Positions 39,183 to 51,040 of a DNA stretch of 64,000 nt are shown in pieces (position 1 is the first letter of the stretch; each line of letters starts with the position of its first letter). The stretch spans positions 806,001 to 870,000 of the forward strand of contig NZ_JARXUZ010000001.1 in the NCBI RefSeq assembly GCF_029893365.1. Direction: 5' to 3'. The stretch is from Cryobacterium sp. CG_9.6 (GTDB lineage: Bacteria > Actinomycetota > Actinomycetes > Actinomycetales > Microbacteriaceae). Below the pieces are notes generated by a model that saw only the letters and a program-made list of their open reading frames with translations, was not told where the DNA came from and did not search any database. Both the position numbers and the translations under genes were made by a program.

Positions 39183-40160
39183 GTGTCTGAAATCAAGACC
39201 AGCGGCGATAAGCGACTTGTATTGGTTTCGGGGCGGGCGCATCCACAGCTCGCCATCGACATCGCTGCGGAGCTTGGCTCGGAGCTCCTGCACACCGACG
39301 CACGCACCTTCGCGAACGGTGAACTGTATGCGCGATTTGATGAGAGTGTTCGTGGTTCTGACGCGTTCGTGATTCAGTCGCACACCGCGCCCATCAACGA
39401 GTGGCTGATGGAACAGCTCATCATGGTCGACGCCCTCAAGCGCGCCTCGGCCAAGCGCATCACGGTCGTTGCCCCCTTCTACCCCTATGCTCGTCAGGAC
39501 AAGAAGGGCCGCGGACGGGAGCCGATCTCTGCTCGCCTGGTCGCTGACCTCTTCAAGGTGGCCGGTGCCGACCGCATCATGTCGATCGACCTGCACGCCG
39601 CACAGATTCAGGGCTTCTTTGACGGCCCCGTCGACCACCTCTTCGCGATGCCGGTGCTGCTGGAGCACTTCCGTGAGAAGCTCGACCCCGCCACCCTCAC
39701 CATCGTCTCGCCCGACATGGGCCGCGTTCGCGTGGCCGACATTTGGAGCGACCGCCTCGGAGTGCCGCTGGCCATCATTCACAAGCGTCGCGACCCGCTC
39801 GTGCCCAACCGCGTCTCCGTTCACGAGATCGTCGGCCAGGTGGAGGGCCGCGTCTGCCTGCTCGTCGACGACATGATCGACACCGGCCGCACCATTGCCC
39901 TCGCGGCCGAGGCACTGCGTGAAGCCGGCGCCATCGGCGTTGTCGTCGCCGCCACGCACGCCGTGTTCAGCGACCCCGCCGTGGACATGCTGCAGAACCC
40001 CGCGATCTCGGCCGTTGTCGTTACCGACACGCTTCCGATCCCGGAGGAGAAGCGATTCCCGACCCTGACGATCCTGCCGATTGCCCCGCTGTTGGCGCGC
40101 GCGATTCACGAGGTCTTCGACGAGGGTTCCGTCACCTCCATGTTCGACGGCGCCGCATAA
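39183..40160 (+). CDS. prs: ribose-phosphate pyrophosphokinase
   Basis: This 325-residue PRPP synthetase has a catalytic flexible loop (YARQDKKGRGREPISARLVA), the divalent metal site SIDLHAAQIQGFFDGPVDHL and the PRPP loop VDDMIDTGRTIA (about 228-239). It supplies PRPP for nucleotide, His and Trp synthesis. glmU-prs is a conserved bacterial pairing. The GTG start abuts the glmU stop. A terminator follows. Confidence 0.96.
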   Translation: MSEIKTSGDKRLVLVSGRAHPQLAIDIAAELGSELLHTDARTFANGELYARFDESVRGSDAFVIQSHTAPINEWLMEQLIMVDALKRASAKRITVVAPFYPYARQDKKGRGREPISARLVADLFKVAGADRIMSIDLHAAQIQGFFDGPVDHLFAMPVLLEHFREKLDPATLTIVSPDMGRVRVADIWSDRLGVPLAIIHKRRDPLVPNRVSVHEIVGQVEGRVCLLVDDMIDTGRTIALAAEALREAGAIGVVVAATHAVFSDPAVDMLQNPAISAVVVTDTLPIPEEKRFPTLTILPIAPLLARAIHEVFDEGSVTSMFDGAA

Positions 40161-40178
40161 CCGTTAGTTTCACCACGA

Positions 40179-40210
40179 AGGCCGGTCATCGATTCGTCGA
40201 GGACCGGCCT
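40179..40210. terminator. terminator between prs and the accessory operon
   Basis: AGGCCGGTC (40179-40187) pairs with GACCGGCCT (40202-40210). Inside, after one A-G mismatch, TCGA/TCGA closes a TTCG tetraloop. It sits between convergent transcription units. Confidence 0.8.
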
Positions 40211-40226
40211 CTGGTCTGTCGGCGCG

Positions 40227-41564
40227 TTAGTTGCGGCCGAGCACCTGCACGAGAACGCGACGAATAGCATCCGCCCGCCTCACGAACCCATGCGTGCCCA
40301 CCGGTTCAACGCCGGTGACGAGCCGCCGAAGGCCGCCGACTCCGAGCGTCAGCGCACTCGCTAGCACCGGTGTGCCCTGGTCATCACACACGACGAAATC
40401 CACCGCGTTCGCGTCGTCCCACGCGTCCCACCCGGGGTCATTCGTGAGATCCCGGCGCGCTGTCACCGACAGCCACGCTCCCTCGTGCAGCACCCGCGCC
40501 GAGTAGGTGACGCGTGCACCGTCAATCTGCACGCTGCCGTCACACAAGAACAGGCGTGGCCCCCACGGCGGGTAATCGATGGAACCTGCCAGTTCCGGAA
40601 CCGCTGACTCGCCCGGTAACGGCAGTACAACCGTGAGCATCACACTCAGTCGGGCTCCCTGCACCTCGGCGCTGAGCCGTTCCACGTAGCGGATGCCGGG
40701 GGCCGGCTCCGTCATGGCCGTGCACGCGGCATCCGCTGGCACACCCAGGGGTGTCGCCGCAGCGAGACACGCGCGGGCATCGCGATACCCCATGGCGAGC
40801 AGCGAATCGGTGCTGATGCGCCCCAGAAAGTATTCGGGGTCCAGCGGGAGCGGATGCCGTGGCTTCACCACGTGCAGAACGAAGCGTCGCCCCGCAGCCG
40901 CGGCTGCGGCAAAATCGGCGAGCAGTGCCCCGGTGGCACTCATCTCGATCATGTGCACGTACTGCTCGAGCGGGCCATCGCCGTAATACCCGGTATTTCC
41001 GATGCACCAGACCAGCCAGATTTCGTCGGCACCCCGGCGCAGCGCCTCCGACACGTTGGCATCGCGAATCCACACTGCGTCGGTGTACACAATGCCGTCG
41101 CGGCGCAGCGGGGTCATGAAAATGGGCAGCGACATGCCGGCAGCGAGAAGCTCGGCATCGATTGCCCCGGCCTCGTAGGCGATTGACTGTTTGTGAGTGA
41201 AATCGGCCACGTTGAACGTGCCCTCCGCCGTTGCCGAGCGGATGCGCTCCACGTCGATCCCGAGGTTTGGGAACACCCTGTCGCGAATCCCGTCCGCGTC
41301 CCCGAACGCCGGCAGCGCCCACGGTCCCTTCAGATAGTTCAGCACCGGCAGGCCGGACACGAAGTCGCCCACGTTCAGCGCACTCCACCGTCGCACCATC
41401 TCGTCGGGGTCCTGCCCCGACAAGAGCATGGCGGTTGTCAGAATTCCACCGCTCGTGCCGTCGATGTGGTCAAAGGTGAGTCCCTCCTCGGTGAGGGCCT
41501 TCACCACACCCGTCTGCCAGGCCACGCGCATGCCGCCGCCGGCCAGAACCAGGGAACGCTTCAT
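40227..41564 (-). CDS. patatin-like phospholipase family protein
   Basis: This 445-residue protein has an N-terminal patatin domain: glycine-rich oxyanion loop AGGGMRVAWQTG (8-19), nucleophile Ser38 in DGTSGG and the catalytic Asp162 in YTDAVW (DGG/DGA in most patatins, DAV here). About 180 residues C-terminal to it form a beta-rich region of unknown fold. It should hydrolyse acyl esters of lipids. It is the last gene of the accessory operon, and its start lies inside the 3' end of the preceding gene (95-nt overlap in another frame). There is no obvious SD, so re-initiation is likely. Confidence 0.85.
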   Translation of the reverse strand: MKRSLVLAGGGMRVAWQTGVVKALTEEGLTFDHIDGTSGGILTTAMLLSGQDPDEMVRRWSALNVGDFVSGLPVLNYLKGPWALPAFGDADGIRDRVFPNLGIDVERIRSATAEGTFNVADFTHKQSIAYEAGAIDAELLAAGMSLPIFMTPLRRDGIVYTDAVWIRDANVSEALRRGADEIWLVWCIGNTGYYGDGPLEQYVHMIEMSATGALLADFAAAAAAGRRFVLHVVKPRHPLPLDPEYFLGRISTDSLLAMGYRDARACLAAATPLGVPADAACTAMTEPAPGIRYVERLSAEVQGARLSVMLTVVLPLPGESAVPELAGSIDYPPWGPRLFLCDGSVQIDGARVTYSARVLHEGAWLSVTARRDLTNDPGWDAWDDANAVDFVVCDDQGTPVLASALTLGVGGLRRLVTGVEPVGTHGFVRRADAIRRVLVQVLGRN

Positions 41565-42051
41565 GAGCTGTCGTTTCTGTCGGGAGTGTGCGCCTGACCC
41601 TGCGGGGGCGCGGCTCGGTGGTGTGCCGCCCCTGCGCGGCGGCCTGACGCAGGCGACGCCAGTAGACGAACAGCAGCGCGGCGGTGGCCAGATCGAAGGC
41701 CGCCACGAGGAGGGCGATCGTGCCGAACAGCTGCTGGGCCACCCCCAGGCTCACGGCCACCACCGCACCGGCCTTCTGCACACCCGACCAGAGCACCACG
41801 TCGCGGTGCGGAACGCGCCGCAGTAGCGACTGCGCCAGCAGAGCACCCACCACGATCATGAACAGGCCCACCGTGCCAAAAAGTTGGGCGGCCAGCGGCG
41901 TGGGGTCAGCCCCCAGCAGACGAAGGAGCGCGTTGGGTGCCACAATCTCGGCCACCCCGGTGAGCGCCGTAATCACGGCTAGGGCCACCAGCACGGCCCG
42001 CAGCGGATGCCACCGCAGCCAGTCCCGAGCCGTGGCCCACCGCGCGGTCAC
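41470..42051 (-). CDS. four-helix membrane protein of unknown function (accessory operon)
   Basis: From the GTG at 42051, which overlaps the upstream stop as GTGA, the protein has 193 residues with four TM helices (LVALAVITALTGVAEIV; LFGTVGLFMIVVGALL; AGAVVAVSLGVAQQLFGTIA; LLVAAFDLATAALLFVYW). The last about 60 residues are Arg-rich; the final 31 codons are read from DNA that also encodes the start of patatin and look like a read-through extension rather than a conserved domain. The family is not recognised (DoxX/DUF4345-like by topology only). Confidence 0.65.
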   Translation of the reverse strand: MTARWATARDWLRWHPLRAVLVALAVITALTGVAEIVAPNALLRLLGADPTPLAAQLFGTVGLFMIVVGALLAQSLLRRVPHRDVVLWSGVQKAGAVVAVSLGVAQQLFGTIALLVAAFDLATAALLFVYWRRLRQAAAQGRHTTEPRPRRVRRTLPTETTAHEAFPGSGRRRHARGLADGCGEGPHRGGTHL

Positions 42052-42548
42052 GAAAACACCGCCGCGAGCTGTCCCTTGTCTACGAGGTATGCCACGATCA
42101 CGAGCCACATCGCGGTGGAGCCATAGAAACGCAGGTCGTTCAGCCACATCCACCGGCGGAGCAGGGCGCGCAGACCCTCCACGTCGGCGTACTCACCTGC
42201 CCGAATCTTCTTGTTGATCGGAATGATGATGCCCTGACCCACATAGGTGAGAAAAATGATTCCCGCCACGCACAGCCAGGCGAACCACACCCGGGAGCTG
42301 CCCCACTCCGATACCACTATGACCGCGCCGGCCACGAACATGACGGGCACGACAATCGTGAAGAACCGGGTGGCTGCCAGCGTGGGAATGGCGAAGTGCA
42401 CGGCCTCCGTTTCGGGCGTGAGGCCGCGCCAGGTGGGGTAGAGAAAGAATTTCAGCACCCACATGGTGCCCATATACATGCTGGCACCGAAGAGAAAATA
42501 CAGCGCGCTGATGAGCAACGGCCAGCCGGTTACGGTTCCCTCGCTCAT
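42048..42548 (-). CDS. four-helix membrane protein (DUF1772-like topology)
   Basis: This 166-residue integral membrane protein has TM segments at about 10-30, 62-82, 88-108 and 140-160. It has a Phe/Trp/Tyr-rich first helix (YFLFGASMYMGTMWVLKFFL) and a conserved-looking loop VGQGIIIPINKKIRAGEYAD. Topology suggests the DUF1772/anthrone-oxygenase-like group, but I cannot confirm it. The start lies 7 nt after the upstream stop, and its own stop overlaps the next GTG. Confidence 0.65.
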   Translation of the reverse strand: MSEGTVTGWPLLISALYFLFGASMYMGTMWVLKFFLYPTWRGLTPETEAVHFAIPTLAATRFFTIVVPVMFVAGAVIVVSEWGSSRVWFAWLCVAGIIFLTYVGQGIIIPINKKIRAGEYADVEGLRALLRRWMWLNDLRFYGSTAMWLVIVAYLVDKGQLAAVFS

Positions 42549-42555
42549 GGTGCGC

Positions 42556-43536
42556 TCACATCTCTACCTCGTTGTCGCCGTTGTGAGACAGGCGCCGTGG
42601 CGGTGCCAGCCATTCCTCGCTGTTTGTCAGGTGCACAACACTGCCGAGGTCATCACCGAGGTGAGCGGATGCCGCGAGCTCGCCAGTCGTCGCGGTGAGG
42701 AACCAGCCCTCATAGTGATCGTCCAATACCCCGTGTGCCGTGGGCATGTACGCGGTGAAGAGCGGTTTGCGCGACACGTGCAGTGTCTTCAGCCCCGCAA
42801 CACCGGGAGCGTCGCCGAACACCAGGCGAGCCTGAGCGTGACGACCGAGCGCGACATCTGCCTGCGCCTCGAAGTAGATGGACGATTTCATGAGCTGGCC
42901 ACGGAACGCGCAGTAGTTGACGGCCGCCAGTTTGAGCGGAAGGTTTGTGTGCGGTGGACGTTTGATGTCGATGGTGCAGCCGTGCATGCCATCAACGGCA
43001 TACATCGCCGAGACCTTCCGCGGAGTCACCACAAAGTCCAGATTGGCCTGGTGCTTGGGCATGCCCCAGATGCCTTTGCCGCCTTTCACCGAGATCTCCG
43101 AGCTCACCGGAAGATCCACCACATACTGGCCGGTGCCGTACGTGCCCATGAGAAGGGCGGGGAGCAGCGGCGGTGCCGGCTTGGGTCCGTGCGTCACCGC
43201 AATGGCGAGGGAGTACTCGATGTAGCGACCGATGTCTGTGGAGAGATAGTTCACCACGGTGACAATGAGCAGTCCGCGGCCCCAGCCGATTCCCACCGGA
43301 TGCAGTTCGGTTCCGGGCAGCAGACGGGCGGCGGCCGACCGACGAACGGGGAATGCGGCCATCAGCACGGGGGAGTTGTCGGAGTTGACCGGCATCGTGT
43401 ACGGGATGCCGTCCACGAGGGCGTGCTGCCCGGCGAGGCGCGTCTGGCGCTCGGGAACCGGCGAGGGTAGGCGGGACAGCGCGGACTGCAGCAGCCGTTG
43501 AAGTGATTGGCCGAGGGCCGTGGTGAGGTCGTTCAT
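42556..43536 (-). CDS. acetoacetate decarboxylase-fold protein
   Basis: This 326-residue protein of the acetoacetate decarboxylase superfamily has core segments LLPGTELHPVGIGWGRGLLI, RYIEYSLAIAV, the turn YVVDLPVSSEISVKGGKGIW, then GMPKHQANLDF, where Lys161 matches the Schiff-base lysine. In clostridial decarboxylase the motif is PKK, with the second Lys tuning the first; here it is PKH, so simple decarboxylation is not assured. The start ATG at 43536 overlaps the upstream stop (ATGA). Its substrate in this operon is unknown. Confidence 0.8.
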   Translation of the reverse strand: MNDLTTALGQSLQRLLQSALSRLPSPVPERQTRLAGQHALVDGIPYTMPVNSDNSPVLMAAFPVRRSAAARLLPGTELHPVGIGWGRGLLIVTVVNYLSTDIGRYIEYSLAIAVTHGPKPAPPLLPALLMGTYGTGQYVVDLPVSSEISVKGGKGIWGMPKHQANLDFVVTPRKVSAMYAVDGMHGCTIDIKRPPHTNLPLKLAAVNYCAFRGQLMKSSIYFEAQADVALGRHAQARLVFGDAPGVAGLKTLHVSRKPLFTAYMPTAHGVLDDHYEGWFLTATTGELAASAHLGDDLGSVVHLTNSEEWLAPPRRLSHNGDNEVEM

Positions 43537-44606
43537 CGGGTCAGCTCCCTTTCGATGATCGGGTAGGTGTCGCGCCACGCGTTGGCCCCGAAAAACACGT
43601 CCAGGTGCCCATAGCCCGGAATGAGATGAAAAGTATCCTTGCCGGGCCGGTGCCGGTTGAAGAACTCGAAGCTGCGGCGCTGGCTCTCGGGGAGGAAGCA
43701 GCGGTTGTCGACGCCGGTGAGGAAGACGAAACGCGCGTCGGTGTGCGGAGCCTCGGCCACGAGGTCCCGGGGAATCTCGGGGTGCACTCCTGAGTGCACG
43801 AGGTGACCGGCGTCGAGGGAGAGCTTCATCTGGGAGAAGAAGGTCATGGGGGACTCGGCAAATTCGCCGGTGATCCAGTCGTGCGTGGCCCGGTCGATGT
43901 TGCGGTGCGCCCAGAGCGCCGGATGCCCGCTGCCGTAGGTGAAACTCACCATGCGACACACGGTGTTGTCGCACTCGGGGTGGGTGGCCCGCACGGCACC
44001 GCGCACGACGCGGGAAAAGTATCCGTTTGATTTATAACCCCAGGCCGTGTTGAGGTACGGGCTGAATTCGTTCACAATCGGCGCGAGTCGGGTGATCTTA
44101 AACCGGGAAAATGCGGGCACGACCGGGTGCAGGGACACCGCGTTGGTGATGACGGTGTCGACCTCGGGGAGCAGACCCGCTACCGCCGCCATGGTGAACG
44201 ACGTGGATCCCTGACAGTGCACCACCGCCTTGAGGGTCTCGGCTCCGGTGGCACGGAGAATATGCGCCACGGCCGTGGGGTAGTCGTAGACGGCGGCATC
44301 GTCGAGGGTCCACGGCACCGGGTCGAAGTCGATGGAGGCTCGCCAGTTGAACATCCAGACGTCCCAGCCCTGCTCGAGCAGCCCATCGACGAGGGTGCGC
44401 TTGAGCGGAGGTCTAAACAGCTCGGCCCGCACCCCGGCCCCGTGCACGAGCATGACGGGGCCACGAGGTGAGTGCTGCCGTCGACCAGCCGGGATGCTGA
44501 CGTGAACGAGGGAGAGCGGCACGCCATCGGGCGCGGTGAGCGGAATGACGTCGGTCACGTGGTCGGCGCGTGAAACCGGGTGGGTCGTGGTGCGTGTTGG
44601 GCTCAT
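43533..44606 (-). CDS. alpha/beta hydrolase with a Cys nucleophile elbow (PhaC-like)
   Basis: This 357-residue alpha/beta hydrolase has oxyanion strand LVHGAGVRAELFRPP and nucleophile elbow VVHCQGSTSF, with Cys131 in the nucleophile position (Sm-x-C-x-G as in polyhydroxyalkanoate synthases) instead of Ser. The acid is probably the Asp in TGVDNRCFLPESQ, and the His is in IPGYGHLDVFFGA. It has no signal peptide. It is translationally coupled on both sides by ATGA overlaps. In larger proteins of this type I recall the domain fused to GMC oxidoreductases; here both are encoded in one operon. Confidence 0.8.
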   Translation of the reverse strand: MSPTRTTTHPVSRADHVTDVIPLTAPDGVPLSLVHVSIPAGRRQHSPRGPVMLVHGAGVRAELFRPPLKRTLVDGLLEQGWDVWMFNWRASIDFDPVPWTLDDAAVYDYPTAVAHILRATGAETLKAVVHCQGSTSFTMAAVAGLLPEVDTVITNAVSLHPVVPAFSRFKITRLAPIVNEFSPYLNTAWGYKSNGYFSRVVRGAVRATHPECDNTVCRMVSFTYGSGHPALWAHRNIDRATHDWITGEFAESPMTFFSQMKLSLDAGHLVHSGVHPEIPRDLVAEAPHTDARFVFLTGVDNRCFLPESQRRSFEFFNRHRPGKDTFHLIPGYGHLDVFFGANAWRDTYPIIERELTR

Positions 44607-46453
44607 GCGCGGAATCCTTTGCGGGAGATGAGGATGGGGGGTTCGAGAAGTCGCGGGGAGAGAGGTTTGGTGGGAACGGGCCGCTTCTGAGCACCCGGCT
44701 CGCCGACAAGGGTCCAGTTGCGGCAGACGGTGTCGATCACGATCGGAAAGACCTCGAGGTCGCCGTTGCGGTGCAGGCGCAGGCGCAGAAAACCTTTGTG
44801 GTCCTCGATGGCCTGACTTGACATCTGCCAGTTGAAAATATTGCCGGACTGCTGGGTGAGGGTGAAGAGTGCGAACACCTCGGTGCCGACGAGGGCGCCG
44901 CCCACCCCCACAATGGCGGCGGCAACGACCACAATCTCAGCTCCGGACCACACGGCGGGCCAGGGAATCCAGAGCGTCAGAAGTGCGAAGCCGATGAAGA
45001 CGGTGAGTTGTAAGCCCACGGCAGCGACGATCGACGCCGCGCGGGGCAGCCCGATTCGTGGCGCGACGGCGGCGATGATCGAAACGAGCAGAACAATCAC
45101 GCCGAGAATGAGCAGAACCCCCTGCACCTGAAGTCGATCGGTGGAGAGGGTGTCGCTCGACAGCGGCACCGTCCCCACCTGAGCGGTGACGCCGAGAAGC
45201 CCGGCGAGGGGAAGAAAGACGAGCAGATGCAGTGTGCCGAGCAGCGGCGGGAACGAGCGGTTGCGCCACCCCAGCCAGAAGCGGCTGAACGGGTTGGCCG
45301 TGCGCCCGCTCATGTGCCGTGAGCTGGCGGCATCCGGGTAGGTGGTGGGACCCTGACGAAATTCGGTGCCGCGCTTATCTTTGCCACGCATGCGCGACTC
45401 CGGTGCAGGAAGGGTGAGGGCTTGTGGCAGCTGGTGGGTGGCAGAGAGAAAGGCGCCGCCGAGCCCGCAGGTAATGAGCTGGGTGCAGCGGGGGTCTCCC
45501 GCACCAGCGGACCGGTGGGTGGGTGGGACCTGCTCATACCGGGTGTAGTGGTGCGCGTCTCCGCTCAGCCACAGGCGCACGTGCGCTCCGGTTGGCTTCA
45601 CCGATCCCGTCACGGGGTCGACGCGGTTGCGCAGAAAATTCTTCTCAAAATAATGCAGTTGGTTGAACGCGTTGGGGTCGTGCGTCTTGGTGTGAACCCA
45701 GGTGGGGGTTGCGGTGCACAAAATGATCGCGTCGCCTGGACACAGCCGATTGGTCAGCCGGTCCCGAAAGTAGTTCAGTTGCGGCTCGTCCATGTACTCG
45801 CCGAGCTGGCTATCCAGGCCCGCGAGCCACCAGCCGTGGCCGAGGCGCAGAGCAAAGTAGCTGCGTGTTTGGATGGTGTGCCACGCACCGATTCTGCGTG
45901 GCCGGGTGAAAATGCGGAGGAACGCGCTGAGACCGTCGTACCAGTCGTGGTTGCCGGGCAGGGCCAGCAGACTCGGGTTGTGGTTACCGCGGCGGTTATG
46001 ATCGGCGCTCTCGGCAGGGAGTGCCGCCGCGTAGGGACCGAGGGTGCGGTCTTCATAGTCGCGGGCTGAGGCCGTGGGGTACACCTCGTCGCCACCGAAA
46101 ACCAGGAGATGGCCGCGGGGAAGCGCGGCCGATCGGGTGCGCTCACCGTGCGCGTGCACCACAATCTCGTCCTGACCGAGCAGTGAGGCGATGCTGCTGG
46201 TGGCGTCGAAACCATCGCCGAGATCGGCCGTGTAATCGATCCACAGGTCACCCCGTGGATGCTCTGCCAGTCGCAGGGGTTGTTTCGAGAAGACCTCCTG
46301 CAGCTCCCGCTTGTCTCCGTAGTTGGCGAAGATCTGGGCCAGAACAACACGCACTGCCGTGCGCAGAAGCTGTCCCGGCGCAAGCCAGCGCACACAGTTT
46401 TGCGGGATGAAGCCAAGCTCGTTTTCGTGGCGAGCCAGACTGCGTCTTTTCAT
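44603..46453 (-). CDS. metallophosphoesterase with C-terminal membrane domain
   Basis: This 616-residue protein has a calcineurin-type phosphoesterase domain (about 70-330) with metal-binding motifs DYTADLGDGFD, FGGDEVYP, LPGNHDWYDG and SGDAHHYTRYE. It is followed by four to five TM helices (about 425-560) and a short cytoplasmic tail. No signal peptide is seen, so the catalytic domain is probably cytoplasmic at the membrane. The substrate may be a phosphorylated lipid or headgroup (inference from neighbours). Its stop overlaps the next gene's ATG. AGAGAAG serves as SD, 24 nt after the GMC stop. Confidence 0.85.
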   Translation of the reverse strand: MKRRSLARHENELGFIPQNCVRWLAPGQLLRTAVRVVLAQIFANYGDKRELQEVFSKQPLRLAEHPRGDLWIDYTADLGDGFDATSSIASLLGQDEIVVHAHGERTRSAALPRGHLLVFGGDEVYPTASARDYEDRTLGPYAAALPAESADHNRRGNHNPSLLALPGNHDWYDGLSAFLRIFTRPRRIGAWHTIQTRSYFALRLGHGWWLAGLDSQLGEYMDEPQLNYFRDRLTNRLCPGDAIILCTATPTWVHTKTHDPNAFNQLHYFEKNFLRNRVDPVTGSVKPTGAHVRLWLSGDAHHYTRYEQVPPTHRSAGAGDPRCTQLITCGLGGAFLSATHQLPQALTLPAPESRMRGKDKRGTEFRQGPTTYPDAASSRHMSGRTANPFSRFWLGWRNRSFPPLLGTLHLLVFLPLAGLLGVTAQVGTVPLSSDTLSTDRLQVQGVLLILGVIVLLVSIIAAVAPRIGLPRAASIVAAVGLQLTVFIGFALLTLWIPWPAVWSGAEIVVVAAAIVGVGGALVGTEVFALFTLTQQSGNIFNWQMSSQAIEDHKGFLRLRLHRNGDLEVFPIVIDTVCRNWTLVGEPGAQKRPVPTKPLSPRLLEPPILISRKGFRA

Positions 46454-46477
46454 CGGAGGCTTCTCTTCAGGTGGGGG

Positions 46478-48913
46478 TCAGTTCGTATCGAGGGGTCGAC
46501 GAGGCCGGAGATAGACGTGAGCCACTTCGCCCACAAACAGTCGGCCAAAGGTGAGGAGGGCACCACGCGCGGCGGGACCAGTCGTGCGAAACGTGGTGAG
46601 CTGTCTGGCGAAGGCCCACGGCGAAATATGGATAATTCCAGAGGCCCGCACCCCCGCAGCGGGCTGCACAAAGGCGAGCTGGCCGCTGGCACCGGAGACG
46701 GGTTCTGGCGGCGCAATATGCCCGTCGAGAACGTGCACGAAAAGCGTCGTCGTGTCGCGCCAGGGAGTGAAACCGGCCCGGTTGCTCACCTCCTTGTAAC
46801 CCACCAGAGTGAGCGGAGAACCGCCCACATCGCGCAGCCACAGGCGATACAGCATGCGTCGACCGTCAAGGCCCGCGGGGTGCACGAACAGGTTGAACCA
46901 GCCCTGTTCCACCTCCAGGCGCCCACCCAGAGCGTCAAACATGACGTAGCCGCTCGCGCTCGCCGGGTGTAGAGGATCACGGGTGAAAGCGGCCAGATCG
47001 GTCGCCGTAATGGTGAGTTCGAACATGAGATCGTGACCGCGGATGCGGCCGTTCAGCGCACCACGGGCGGGGTCGGCGATGCCGATTGTCGCGGGACCGC
47101 GCATCCGCTCGGTGAAACTGAGGGTGGTGGGCGGAGGTTGGGCTTCGGCTGGGCCTGGTTCTGGCACGGATGCCGCCGGTGCCTCCACGTGCCGGACCGC
47201 TGTCTTCGCCCATGTCGTATCGAGCATATGCTCGCTGGCGCGGTCGGAAAAAGCCGCGATTGTCAGCGACGGGTTGGCGCCCACCGGCCCCGGCATCGCG
47301 GCACCGTCCAGCACGTAGAGGCCGGGGTAACCAAAGACCTGCCCGTACTCGTCACAAACGCCCTCCTCAATCTGCTGCGCCGCCGGGGCGCCGCCGAGCG
47401 GATGCACGGTGATCACGCGCTTCGCCCACCACAGCGGGGTGTCTTCGAACCGGGCGTGCAGGGCGGTTGCGATTTCTTCCATGGCGGAGCGCATGCGCTC
47501 GTAGTACACCTTCGAGGTGGCGAGGGTCCAGTTGATTTCCAGGCGACCCTGGGACAGCGTCATCACCCCATCGGGCACATCACGTCCCATACCGAGCAGG
47601 GGAAGCACGCTCGCCGAAGCGTGGCCGTCACCGAGCGCTGCAGCGAGATCCCGCGAAATATTGGAGCGTTGCCCGTGAAAGAGCCGATTGAGAAACAGTT
47701 GCCAGACCACCGGACCAACGCGGGCCACCACCTCGGGAAGGAGCGAGGTCTCCATGAGCCAGTTGATGAATCCCGGATACCCGGCGTCCTCAATGTAGAA
47801 GCCACGGCCGGAACCGCCGTCCACGGTGTCGGGCACGCGCATCGCCGTGGTTATCACCGGACCACGATCGCCGGTGAGGGAGCGCACGCCGCCGGCATCC
47901 GTTTTTGCATTGAGCATCAGTGTGAGTAGATCGCCATTGCCGCTAAATCGTGTGCCGAGAAGCGGGCTGATGCCGGGCAGTGAGGCACGGTTACGCAACA
48001 GCAAAAAGGTGGAACCGAAGGTGCCGGCGCCCAGAATGAGGCGATGACAGCGGATGCGCCGCACCGGCAAATCTGCTGTGGCGCCTGAGCCGGTGGTGCC
48101 AGACCCCGTGGCAGCGGGATCGTGCACCACATACGTCACCTCATACCCACCGCCGTCGAGCGGGCGAAACCCGCGCACCTCGCTCAGGGTGCGGATGTCG
48201 GCGCCCTGATGCTTCGCAGCAGACAGGTAGGTGTGGTCGAGAGTGTTCTTCGCCCCCACGTTGCAGCCCACGTCACACTCACCGCAGAGCAGACACGTGA
48301 CGCGTCGCTGGCCGTGAAAATTCTTGTAGGGCCCGTCGGGAATCTGCAGGTTGGCTTCGGCCGTGGCATAGCGCGTGGGGCCAAACGTGATCGCCAGCGG
48401 CGGACGCTCGATGGGACGGCCCAGCGTGCGGGCCGCAGCCTCCATCGCCATCGTCTTCGGCGTGTCCTGGTAGGGATAGGGAACCGGGGTGAGCATGGCT
48501 TCCACGTTGTCGTAGTGCGGATCAAGGTCGGCCCGGCTGAACGGCCAGTCCTCGTAGCCGCCGCCGGGAACCGGGGATTCCCGCACGAACCACTTCTCGT
48601 CCTTGCGCAGCAACACGTTGGCGTAGATGAGGGAGCCGCCGCCGAGACCGCTGGAGACGATGCCTTCGAGACCGCGGAACGTCCACGCGTCGAAGAGGCC
48701 ATACATGCCGGCGCTGGGGTCCCAGAAGTTACGGCCCATCTGCGCTGGGGTGCGGGCAAAGCTACCGGGTGGATACGCTTTACCGCGTTCGAGCACCACG
48801 ACGGACTTATCCGCCGCTGCCAATTTGTAGGCGGCAACGGATGCCCCGAAGCCGGATCCGACGACCACGGCATCGACGAATTCGCTGTCTGATGAAGCGT
48901 TCGTGACGGTCAC
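46478..48913 (-). CDS. GMC-family FAD oxidoreductase (cholesterol-oxidase-like) with four-Cys cluster motif and C-terminal beta domain
   Basis: From the GTG at 48913 (G-rich SD) the protein has 811 residues. The FAD Rossmann motif GSGFGASVAAY is at about 19-29. A C-x2-C-x2-C-x3-C motif (Cys207, 210, 213, 217, in CLLCGECDVGCNVGAKN) could hold a [4Fe-4S] cluster. The active-site/FAD region VHPLGGAP and the C-terminal GMC signature LDGAAMPGPVGANPSLTIAA follow. About 190 further residues (from TLSFTERMRGPATIG) form an extra beta-rich domain. It lacks an export signal. It is the first gene of the accessory operon; a hydrophobic alcohol or sterol substrate is inferred. Confidence 0.88.
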   Translation of the reverse strand: MTVTNASSDSEFVDAVVVGSGFGASVAAYKLAAADKSVVVLERGKAYPPGSFARTPAQMGRNFWDPSAGMYGLFDAWTFRGLEGIVSSGLGGGSLIYANVLLRKDEKWFVRESPVPGGGYEDWPFSRADLDPHYDNVEAMLTPVPYPYQDTPKTMAMEAAARTLGRPIERPPLAITFGPTRYATAEANLQIPDGPYKNFHGQRRVTCLLCGECDVGCNVGAKNTLDHTYLSAAKHQGADIRTLSEVRGFRPLDGGGYEVTYVVHDPAATGSGTTGSGATADLPVRRIRCHRLILGAGTFGSTFLLLRNRASLPGISPLLGTRFSGNGDLLTLMLNAKTDAGGVRSLTGDRGPVITTAMRVPDTVDGGSGRGFYIEDAGYPGFINWLMETSLLPEVVARVGPVVWQLFLNRLFHGQRSNISRDLAAALGDGHASASVLPLLGMGRDVPDGVMTLSQGRLEINWTLATSKVYYERMRSAMEEIATALHARFEDTPLWWAKRVITVHPLGGAPAAQQIEEGVCDEYGQVFGYPGLYVLDGAAMPGPVGANPSLTIAAFSDRASEHMLDTTWAKTAVRHVEAPAASVPEPGPAEAQPPPTTLSFTERMRGPATIGIADPARGALNGRIRGHDLMFELTITATDLAAFTRDPLHPASASGYVMFDALGGRLEVEQGWFNLFVHPAGLDGRRMLYRLWLRDVGGSPLTLVGYKEVSNRAGFTPWRDTTTLFVHVLDGHIAPPEPVSGASGQLAFVQPAAGVRASGIIHISPWAFARQLTTFRTTGPAARGALLTFGRLFVGEVAHVYLRPRRPLDTN

Positions 48914-49069: not shown

Positions 49070-49435
49070 TCAGGACGAAACGCCGGCGGGCCGCTGCGTG
49101 GGCGCCGACGGAATGATTCCGAGCCCAACCACGAAGGTTTCGCGCTCGTTCCGGTCGATGGCGTAGCACTGCCAGCCGACGCCGCCGGCTCCACCGAATT
49201 CAAACCGAGCGTCAAAGTCGGAGGAGAACGGGTAGTACTGTGCCACGGCAGCGACGCAGGCAGTCGATGCGGTGTTTTGCGCCACCTGCATCGTGGTGAG
49301 AATCCCCGGAACGACGAGGGCTACCAAACCGAGCACCACGACAATGCGCAGTATGCGCGTCAGGTGCCGACTGCGCAGTGGTCGCTGGCGGTCATTGGGC
49401 TCGTAGCCGGACAGTTCGGGATAGTTGTCACTCAT
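49070..49435 (-). CDS. small single-pass membrane protein of unknown function
   Basis: From the ATG at 49435 (MSDNYPELSGYEPNDRQ) the protein has 121 residues: a charged N-terminus, one TM (ILRIVVVLGLVALVVPGIL) and an extracytoplasmic domain with two Cys (ACVAAVAQYYPFSSDFDARF ... GWQCYAID). It has no known family. It is upstream of the GMC operon in the same direction with a 156-nt gap, so it may be separate. That gap holds no other recognisable feature. Confidence 0.65.
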   Translation of the reverse strand: MSDNYPELSGYEPNDRQRPLRSRHLTRILRIVVVLGLVALVVPGILTTMQVAQNTASTACVAAVAQYYPFSSDFDARFEFGGAGGVGWQCYAIDRNERETFVVGLGIIPSAPTQRPAGVSS

Positions 49436-49582: not shown

Positions 49583-51040
49583 CTAGTGCGTTGAGGCCTC
49601 GGTCTCGATCTCGGTGCGGTCGCCCGACCAGAGCGTGTGGAAGGTGCCCGGGAGATCCACGCGCTTGTAGGTGTGTGCGCCGAAGAAGTCGCGCTGGCCC
49701 TGCACGAGCGCGGCCGGCAGGCGCTCGCTCGCGAGCGAGTCGAAGTAGCTGAGCGAGGCCGCAAATCCGGGAACGGGAACGCCGGAGAGGGCGGCCGTGG
49801 AGACGATGCGACGCCAGGCGGCTTCACCGTTGGCGATGGCCTCGGCGAAGTACGGGTCGATCAGCAGGCTCGGCAGCGCCGCGTCCTTCGCGTAGGCGTC
49901 AACGATGCGGTTGAGGAACTGGGCGCGAATGATGCAGCCGCCGCGCCAGATGGTGGCGGTGGCACCCATGTCGATGTTCCAGTTGTACTTCTTCGCGCCA
50001 GCGACGATCGCGTCGAAGCCCTGCGCGTAGGCGACGATCTTCGAGGCGTAGAGCGCCTGGCGCACGTCTTCCTGGAACGTGTGGCCCACGATGGCGACCT
50101 CGGGGCGAGCCACGAGTCCGGCGCGCACCGGAACGCGCTGCTCGGGGTGGCTGGACACGGCGCGGGCGAAGACTGCCTCGGCGATTCCGCCGACGGGAAC
50201 GCCCAGGTCCAGCGCGTTCTGCACGGTCCACACGCCGGTGCCCTTGGATCCAGCTTCGTCCAGAACGACGTCGACGAACGGCTTGCCGGTCTTCGCATCT
50301 ACCTGACGCAGAATTTCGGCGGTGATCTCGATCAGGTAGCTGTTGAGTTCTCCGGTGTTCCAGTCCGCGAACACGTCGGCGATGGCGGCGGGGGAGTGGC
50401 CTCCCACGCGGCGCAGCAGGTCGTAGGCCTCGGAGATGAGCTGCATGTCGGCATACTCAATGCCGTTGTGGATCATTTTGACGAAGTGGCCAGCGCCATC
50501 GGTTCCCACGTGTGTGACGCAGGGGACGCCGTCGACGACGGCCGCGATGGATTCGAGAATCGGGCCGAGGGTCTTGTAGGCCTCCACCGAACCACCGGGC
50601 ATGATGCTCGGGCCCTTAAGTGCGCCCTCTTCGCCGCCGGAAATACCGGCACCCACAAAGTTGAGGCCCTTGGCGCTCTGCTCCTTCTCACGACGGATGG
50701 TGTCGGTGAAGTCGGCATTGCCGCCATCGACAATGATGTCGCCGGCCTCGAACAGGTCGGAGAGCTGGCTGATCACGGCATCGGTTCCGGCGCCGGCCTG
50801 AACCATGATGATGGCCGTGCGGGGCTTCGAGAGCGAGGCGACGAAGTCGGCAATGGTCTCGGAAGCCACAAAGTTGGCCTCGGGGTGCTCGGTCGTGAGG
50901 AGGCGGGTGCGCTCGGGGGAGCGGTTGAAGACGGCGACCGTGTTTCCTTCGCGGCTGGCGAGGTTACGAGCCAGATTGGAGCCCATCACCGCCAGTCCGA
51001 CGACGCCAATGTTTGCCTGTGTTGCACCGGATACTGACAC
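49583..51040 (-). CDS. gnd: 6-phosphogluconate dehydrogenase, decarboxylating
   Basis: This 485-residue enzyme of the oxidative pentose phosphate pathway makes ribulose-5-P, CO2 and NADPH. The NADP Rossmann motif GVVGLAVMGSNLARNLA is at about 11-27. The catalytic region FVGAGISGGEEGALKGPSIM is present, as are HFVKMIHNGIEYADMQLISE with the conserved Lys and His, and DEAGSKGTGVWTV. The full length matches the long 6PGDH class. The upstream SD is AAGGAG. It is divergent from rplY. Confidence 0.95.
   Translation of the reverse strand: MSVSGATQANIGVVGLAVMGSNLARNLASREGNTVAVFNRSPERTRLLTTEHPEANFVASETIADFVASLSKPRTAIIMVQAGAGTDAVISQLSDLFEAGDIIVDGGNADFTDTIRREKEQSAKGLNFVGAGISGGEEGALKGPSIMPGGSVEAYKTLGPILESIAAVVDGVPCVTHVGTDGAGHFVKMIHNGIEYADMQLISEAYDLLRRVGGHSPAAIADVFADWNTGELNSYLIEITAEILRQVDAKTGKPFVDVVLDEAGSKGTGVWTVQNALDLGVPVGGIAEAVFARAVSSHPEQRVPVRAGLVARPEVAIVGHTFQEDVRQALYASKIVAYAQGFDAIVAGAKKYNWNIDMGATATIWRGGCIIRAQFLNRIVDAYAKDAALPSLLIDPYFAEAIANGEAAWRRIVSTAALSGVPVPGFAASLSYFDSLASERLPAALVQGQRDFFGAHTYKRVDLPGTFHTLWSGDRTEIETEASTH

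Follow-up and report, generated by a model that had tools for sequence, protein, structure and literature searches.

What could a GMC oxidoreductase, a membrane phosphoesterase, a cysteine hydrolase, a decarboxylase-family protein, two small membrane proteins and a patatin do together? The question is raised by a stretch of 64,000 nucleotides from Cryobacterium sp. CG_9.6 (contig NZ_JARXUZ010000001.1, positions 806,001 to 870,000; hereafter the window), in which seven open reading frames (ORFs) follow one another on the minus strand from 48913 to 40227. In that order they encode GMC, MPE (metallophosphoesterase), ABH (Cys-nucleophile, acid-lipase-like hydrolase), ADC (acetoacetate-decarboxylase-family protein), TM1 and TM2 (small membrane proteins) and PAT (patatin), and CTD denotes the barrel domain shared by GMC and PAT. 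The original prediction, made from the letters of the window, had named the same seven genes in the same order, and all of these ORFs are present. We conclude that the seven genes almost certainly form one conserved unit serving a single pathway, and sequence and model comparisons indicate that four unrelated enzymes of this system, GMC, ABH, ADC and patatin, share one interchangeable beta-barrel. The features of the unit are as follows.

46478..48913, minus strand: GMC oxidoreductase, 811 amino acids (aa), GTG start; cholesterol-oxidase-like catalytic part and C-terminal barrel.
47189..48913, minus strand: GMC catalytic part, about residues 1-575, with H504 (HPLGG) and N547 (GANP).
48263..48295, minus strand: C207-X5-C213-X3-C217 of GMC, candidate [3Fe-4S] ligands.
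46481..47161, minus strand: GMC barrel domain, residues 585-811, without a Pfam match.
44603..46453, minus strand: MPE, 616 aa, metallophosphoesterase with four transmembrane (TM) segments.
43533..44606, minus strand: ABH, 357 aa, acid-lipase-like alpha/beta hydrolase with a Cys nucleophile.
44214..44216, minus strand: Cys131 codon of ABH (HCQGS, versus HSQGT in gastric lipase).
42556..43536, minus strand: ADC, 326 aa, acetoacetate-decarboxylase family, invariant K161.
42048..42548, minus strand: TM1, small membrane protein, weakly Anthrone_oxy-like (below cut-off).
41470..42051, minus strand: TM2, small membrane protein, GTG start, 95-bp overlap with the PAT start.
40227..41564, minus strand: PAT, 445 aa, patatin-like acyl hydrolase, S38/D162.
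40230..40781, minus strand: divergent barrel copy of PAT, residues 262-445, aligned by hhalign to the GMC barrel.

Co-occurrence in relatives, which the original prediction had set as its own test, was found. A scan of species genomes with the GMC alignment kept 80 loci, at which partners were identified by tblastn at 1e-5; the counts refer to the fetched DNA, and a few loci in both of the following groups are short contigs. Beside a close GMC (at least 40% identity, 58/80 loci) ABH was present at 44 loci, MPE at 20, PAT at 15, ADC at 13, and TM1 and TM2 at 11 each. The remaining 22 loci carry a distant GMC (29-33%) and served as a built-in control, at which the six partner families were found in 0/22. 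The association thus goes beyond chance. Ten of the 58 close-GMC loci had no partner at this threshold; at two of these ten (L101 and L107) Pfam identifies genes of the metallophosphoesterase and patatin families close to GMC. At L102 and L117 the barrel directly follows GMC. The full seven-gene set was found at 11/80 loci and at 2/21 loci of a second set, giving 13; the loci of the second set partly come from what are likely the same genomes as the first, and the sets were summed only for this number. Twelve of the 13 are compact, the exception being L085, in which MPE is matched weakly (23%), several kb off and on the opposite strand. The compact sets comprise six Arthrobacter/Paenarthrobacter loci, Microbacterium saccharophilum, Glutamicibacter soli, Streptomyces torulosus, a Myxococcaceae metagenome-assembled genome (MAG) with a different gene order, and genomes G016 and G387. 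All seven genes, at 40-68% identity, are also found on a plasmid of 1.35 Mb in Arthrobacter sp. StoSoilB13. In M. saccharophilum (L067, 17101-18394) the patatin appears as two overlapping pieces in different frames, through a frameshift or an assembly error. When the seven proteins are compared by their pairwise distances across the 13 sets, the correlations between them are 0.82-0.97, as expected if the proteins were co-inherited.

Searches from the side of other members agree. Among 393 genomes of the class, GMC relatives were found in 22 at 1e-100, and ADC relatives in six at 1e-20, all of them GMC-positive; in the five besides the source, ADC lies about 1-3 kb from GMC on the same contig. 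Uncorrected for relatedness among the genomes, the hypergeometric probability of this overlap is 2.7e-7. ABH relatives at 1e-15 occur in 27 class genomes, including 19 of the 22 with GMC. MPE is more loosely associated, being present in 24 class genomes of which 20 lack GMC at its cut-off. Nine of the ten MPE loci that were read have no other part of the operon, and the tenth (L176, 11100-13174) has, beside MPE, a GMC gene matched in two separate pieces and possibly broken. At five loci of one actinomycete family (L172, L173, L179, L180 and L181) a lone MPE stands beside a conserved regulator, mostly with an IMP dehydrogenase-type gene; the regulator is PucR-type in L172, the only copy searched. 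MPE therefore has a life outside the set, and its neighbours there (PucR-type regulator, IMP dehydrogenase, RuvB, PSP1, plasmid and integrase genes) offered no clue to a pathway. With this reservation for MPE, the claim of one conserved functional unit is borne out by synteny, by co-occurrence and by the ADC and ABH searches.

What ties the enzymes together beyond position is the barrel. The C-termini of GMC and patatin have this domain in common: the C-terminal region of PAT aligns with the GMC barrel by hhalign at 99.95% (E 2.2e-38), and a patatin profile restricted to the 13 sequences with 50% identity or more, the window's own included, still matches at 96.9% (E 1.7e-10), with five column shuffles all below 1%. 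The model of the GMC barrel is a beta-barrel with a mean predicted local distance difference test (pLDDT) score of 90.5 and mainly matches beta-barrels in structure; none of its Foldseek matches was significant and its VIA scores were middling, and no kinship was drawn from this fold search. Fusions were tallied among the matches listed, each search favouring the relatives of its query. In the first (120 of 255 matches) these were CTD-ABH (105), GMC-ABH (7), ABH-CTD (5), GMC-CTD-ABH (2) and ABH-ADC-CTD (1), and in the second (120 of 299) PAT-CTD (102), CTD-GMC (7), ADC-CTD (5), ABH-CTD (5) and ABH-ADC-CTD (1). On the barrel tree, which omits the patatin copies of L067 and L070 (below the hidden Markov model cut-off) and in which L062PAT is a very long branch, the partner label needs 13 changes against a minimum of 5. 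Judged by this tree, the barrel has swapped partners repeatedly.

The original prediction had referred to a larger fusion of GMC and an alpha/beta hydrolase, and such proteins exist. GMC-barrel-ABH single proteins are found in Bernardetia (1169 aa), Azospirillum (1143 aa, adjoining an MPE of 604 aa) and Rhizobium (1120 aa), as well as P0171 and P0174, and direct GMC-ABH fusions are P0121-P0126. A Bacteroidetes MAG has GMC-ABH in one open frame of 946 codons, followed by a separate barrel and by an MPE-like stretch with a stop, and TM2 and patatin (PAT-CTD) share one open frame in L104. The description of the two genes as split halves of a fused enzyme is thus correct as to the fusion but incomplete, because the unit of exchange is the barrel, which also joins patatin and decarboxylase. 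In all, fusions link GMC, ABH, ADC, PAT and TM2, and MPE and TM1 are linked by position only.

It is common background that one accessory domain can serve several enzymes acting on a common material, as carbohydrate-binding modules do on glycoside hydrolases and carrier domains in megasynthases. The barrel is analogous, differing in that it has no Pfam family and sits on GMC, lipase-like, decarboxylase-family and patatin proteins. It is probably a lipid-handling module. A more specific and rather doubtful possibility is that it represents a new non-covalent lipid carrier or docking domain, which would hold one insoluble intermediate and be appended before or after the catalytic part of assembly-line enzymes, including the terminal thioester reductase of polyketide clusters described below, so that a lipid might be handed between unrelated enzymes. 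It would then resemble acyl carrier protein (ACP) in passing a lipid, yet do so without covalent attachment.

The best sequence match of GMC in the PDB is cholesterol oxidase (3.1e-35), and its model (mean pLDDT 77) matches 3gyi at E 4.6e-25. H504 and N547 are invariant in the 41 rows of the GMC alignment (A2) and correspond by motif to the His/Asn catalytic pair of cholesterol oxidase, which is named in PMC6719666. GMC is like the Streptomyces enzyme (PDB 3gyi/1mxt) in catalytic fold and in the positions of His and Asn; however, it scores 188.3 bits against a cut-off of 850 for the NCBIfam cholesterol oxidase (NF058674), missing it by far, and it has candidate Fe-S cysteines, an extra barrel and partner enzymes. 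These cysteines, C207, C213 and C217 (CX5CX3C), are invariant in the same 41 rows. Their spacing equals that of the [3Fe-4S] ligands of the flavin adenine dinucleotide (FAD) glucose dehydrogenase (GDH) of B. cepacia, given in PMC6719666 as Cys212, Cys218 and Cys222. When GMC is aligned with Streptomyces cholesterol oxidase, V and N stand opposite C213 and C217, and C207 precedes the aligned part. By the spacing of its cysteines, the sequence hints that GMC is a dehydrogenase with a candidate [3Fe-4S] cluster. GMC shares fold and spacing with the FAD glucose/fructose dehydrogenases of this type (B. cepacia GDH, PDB 6a2u), but its sequence match to them is weaker than to cholesterol oxidase, and a Pfam search of the seven operon proteins gave no family for either the small gamma subunit or the cytochrome c subunit. 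Of the 22 distant GMCs, which lack partners (L119-L131, L133-L141), 21 have a related pattern of the CxxCGxCxxGC type, so that the candidate cluster, if real, predates the operon system. Those distant proteins form another candidate Fe-S group of GMC enzymes.

ABH matches gastric lipase (1hlg, 4e-18) and lysosomal acid lipase (6v7n, 2.1e-14), and the Cys alpha/beta hydrolase of the original prediction is real, as Cys131 is found in 64 of 64 aligned sequences, together with C212 and C217 (64/64 each) and H334 (62/64). Asn301, conserved in 63/64, may lie near the usual acid position of the catalytic set. All three cysteines are also present in the eight ABHs whose loci lack GMC. ABH thus resembles the acid lipases (1hlg, 1k8q, 6v7n) in sequence profile, both in the core and at the His end, and differs from them in a Cys rather than Ser nucleophile, the two extra invariant cysteines and Asn301. 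Polyhydroxyalkanoate (PHA) synthase, PhaC, is an alpha/beta hydrolase with a Cys nucleophile as well; its profile matches ABH weakly (7.5e-7), but the family cut-offs are missed (NCBIfam, 25 bits against 365.3) and the gene context differs. A distant relative of ABH (28%) lies on a plasmid of Leptospira borgpetersenii (NZ_CP012032.1, 7916-8899).

Pfam places four of the seven proteins above its cut-offs (GMC_oxred_C, Abhydrolase_1, ADC and Patatin). ADC scores 56.7 bits against 29.8 for PF06314, and its K161, conserved in 20/20, may be the catalytic Schiff-base Lys of acetoacetate decarboxylase; a sequence-only PDB search with ADC at thresholds of 0.1 and 1 gave no match by which to place this residue. 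PAT scores 81.7 bits against 27.7 for PF01734, with a Ser-Asp dyad assigned by motif (S38 in 20/22, D162 in 21/22); weak NCBIfam matches of 3/13 patatins to a Dot/Icm effector model (best 0.0016) were taken as patatin background. MPE just misses Metallophos (PF00149; 20.1 bits against 21.5), and its metal-site-like motifs D77, GGD122xxY, GNHD170 and GD299xH301H are invariant in a 16-row alignment, from which the L096 copy, with a stop in its reading, is excluded. TM1 falls below the cut-off for Anthrone_oxy (PF08592; 22.6 bits against 27.3), and no Pfam family was found for TM2. Hydropathy gives MPE four TM segments and the window copies of TM1 and TM2 two and three, with 2-3 and 3-4 in most homologues, so the four-TM label that both small proteins had been given is unsupported.

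Barrel and Cys hydrolase also occur together in a second context. Eight ABH-positive class genomes lie outside the GMC list, and eight loci were fetched from seven of them, at which GMC, ADC, MPE and patatin were not found. Six of the seven genomes are probably Streptomyces, since their genus label is also that of G339, in which the GMC-PAT-MPE stretch matches named Streptomyces at 80-82% DNA identity. At six of the eight loci (L184-L189) ABH adjoins another conserved protein (here the second protein), which in turn has a very large protein as its neighbour. The second protein is a thioester reductase in L184 and L189, with an ACP found in the latter, and the large protein of L189 is a polyketide synthase (PKS) with AT, DH, KR, ACP, condensation and FkbH domains. 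The second protein has a barrel match by tblastn in L187, L188 and L189, and the ends of all six align with the GMC barrel at 95.5% (E 1.4e-8). On a plasmid of Rhodococcus pyridinivorans, an annotated thioester reductase with a barrel match (1.7e-9) is followed by ABH; upstream lies an open frame of 3738 codons, and downstream are crotonyl-CoA carboxylase/reductase and glycosyltransferase genes. L184-L189 and L192, from the probable Streptomyces genomes and a Rhodococcus plasmid, look like a conserved natural-product-type cluster in the order large PKS-type protein, thioester reductase-barrel, Cys hydrolase. Barrel and Cys hydrolase thus also serve beside an enzyme that converts a thioester held on a carrier into a carbonyl, and because of this position hydrophobic acyl chains, and not sterols alone, are favoured as the common material.

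In the window the genes are tightly packed. Four of the six junctions overlap: MPE/ABH and ABH/ADC by ATGA and TM1/TM2 by GTGA, 4 bp each, and TM2/PAT by the longer stretch given above. Gaps of 24 bp (GMC/MPE) and 7 bp (ADC/TM1) make up the rest. The original statement that ATGA/GTGA overlaps join most genes holds for three junctions, and "most" is slightly generous for 3/6. Around the operon lie the following features.

40172..40215: hairpin between the convergent PAT and prs, a possible shared terminator without a T run.
39183-40160: prs, convergent to PAT, named by eye from its translation.
49070-49435: small one-TM protein upstream of GMC, present in G016 at 78% identity and probably outside the operon.
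49583-51040: gnd, named by eye from its translation.

The stretch containing the hairpin (40165-40235) folds at -30.4 kcal/mol (z -4.1), and the hairpin is not among the terminator-like sites of a separate terminator scan. A promoter scan was uninformative, with one site against 1.2 expected. The prs and gnd genes also serve as landmarks for the occurrence of the block in the genus, where GMC (E 0) was found in 2/25 genomes, the source included; its closest match with a named source is from Cryobacterium sp. MLB-32 (73%). The second of the two genomes, G016, has the whole block at 74-88% identity. The prs-gnd spacing is 9.4 kb in the source genome and 0.4 to 3.5 kb on one contig in 14 of 15 same-genus relatives, the fifteenth having the two genes on separate contigs, and none of these 15 has GMC. 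Because of the short gap in relatives without GMC and the whole block in G016, we conclude that the block is gained or lost as a unit. Elsewhere, genes for nitrite reductase, HemD, a sugar transporter and an aldolase are among those flanking the Arthrobacter-type sets, and most of these families recur within that group only, the exceptions being a phosphoglucomutase family in L077 and RibD_C in L060 and L071. Regulators with a LuxR-like end, named by eye beside ABH-GMC in Actinomadura-type genomes, gave no clue to the substrate. A P450-like protein, recognised by eye, lies near GMC or ABH at six partial loci (L054, L055, L056, L084, L107 and L118).

Taking these results together, the best explanation of the whole, and one we favour by a small measure, is that the seven genes encode one pathway processing a long-chain, membrane-derived or water-insoluble lipid. 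An order of chemistry can be proposed as well, though in this particular form it is unlikely. The barrel would solubilise the same greasy intermediate or present it to each enzyme, and MPE and the two small membrane proteins would keep the work at the membrane. Patatin and ABH would cleave or transfer acyl groups via an acyl-enzyme, which for ABH would be a Cys-thioester. GMC would then oxidise the exposed alcohol to a carbonyl, its electrons possibly passing through the [3Fe-4S] cluster to the respiratory chain and not to O2, and Lys161 of ADC may serve as a Schiff base in decarboxylating the beta-keto product so formed, or in cleaving it in some other way. The beta-keto chemistry and acyl transfer that this scheme supposes had also been proposed in the original prediction, which had suggested a membrane lipid or a terpenoid/sterol as the putative substrate.

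Of the other explanations, the one that survives best, though we consider it unlikely, is biosynthetic: the unit would tailor one of the cell's own lipids, a polyketide or fatty acyl chain, with ABH as an acyltransferase like PHA synthase and GMC and ADC setting a ketone. It draws on the Cys nucleophile and the weak PhaC profile and NCBIfam matches of ABH, and on the second context, in which ABH and barrel stand beside a PKS with an ACP-thioester reductase-barrel protein, probably in Streptomyces, and beside the annotated thioester reductase on Rhodococcus pyridinivorans plasmids. However, PKS, FAS (fatty acid synthase), ACP and CoA ligase families are absent by Pfam from the seven operon proteins and nine Arthrobacter-type flank proteins, and a patatin and a phosphoesterase suggest hydrolysis. 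Somewhat less probable still is catabolism of sterol or terpenoid esters, in which ABH and patatin would free a 3-hydroxy-terpenoid, GMC would oxidise it and ADC would remove a ring or side-chain carboxyl. The idea rests on the resemblance of GMC to cholesterol oxidase, its nearest relative, whose His and Asn positions it keeps, and of ABH to lysosomal acid lipase/cholesteryl ester hydrolase, and the P450-like gene at the six partial loci would suit it. Yet this resemblance is at the level of fold: GMC reaches 188 of 850 bits for the NCBIfam family and has candidate Fe-S cysteines where the aligned Streptomyces enzyme has none, and among 30 neighbour proteins Pfam gave one clear 3Beta_HSD-type match (L072) and no recurrent sterol gene. 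That the genes are a loose neighbourhood of separate stress or lipid-turnover functions, which have no substrate in common and were co-inherited through chance or through shared regulation, is very improbable; MPE does occur alone, and the set is patchy and often partial, but GMC, ABH, ADC and PAT are repeatedly fused through one domain, synteny is compact across families and in the myxobacterial MAG despite differing annotated flanks, and the control loci lack the partners. Finally, although patatins are effectors in some defence systems and the distribution is patchy and insertion-like, an anti-phage island with a patatin effector was rejected as next to impossible, since PADLOC gave 0 matches for the seven proteins at 1e-5 and the fusions join metabolic enzymes.

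With the lipid pathway as the preferred reading, genes annotated separately as GMC oxidoreductase, alpha/beta hydrolase, patatin and acetoacetate decarboxylase family become one system, versions of which exist in Actinomycetota, Myxococcota, Cyanobacteriota, Bacteroidota and Pseudomonadota; our literature searches found no paper on the gene set. The barrel, being absent from Pfam, provides a handle for finding further members, and the natural GMC-barrel-ABH fusions are single proteins suited to purification and assay. Of enzymological interest are an acid lipase with a Cys nucleophile, an enzyme resembling cholesterol oxidase that may hold an Fe-S cluster, and a mobile barrel that may handle lipids.

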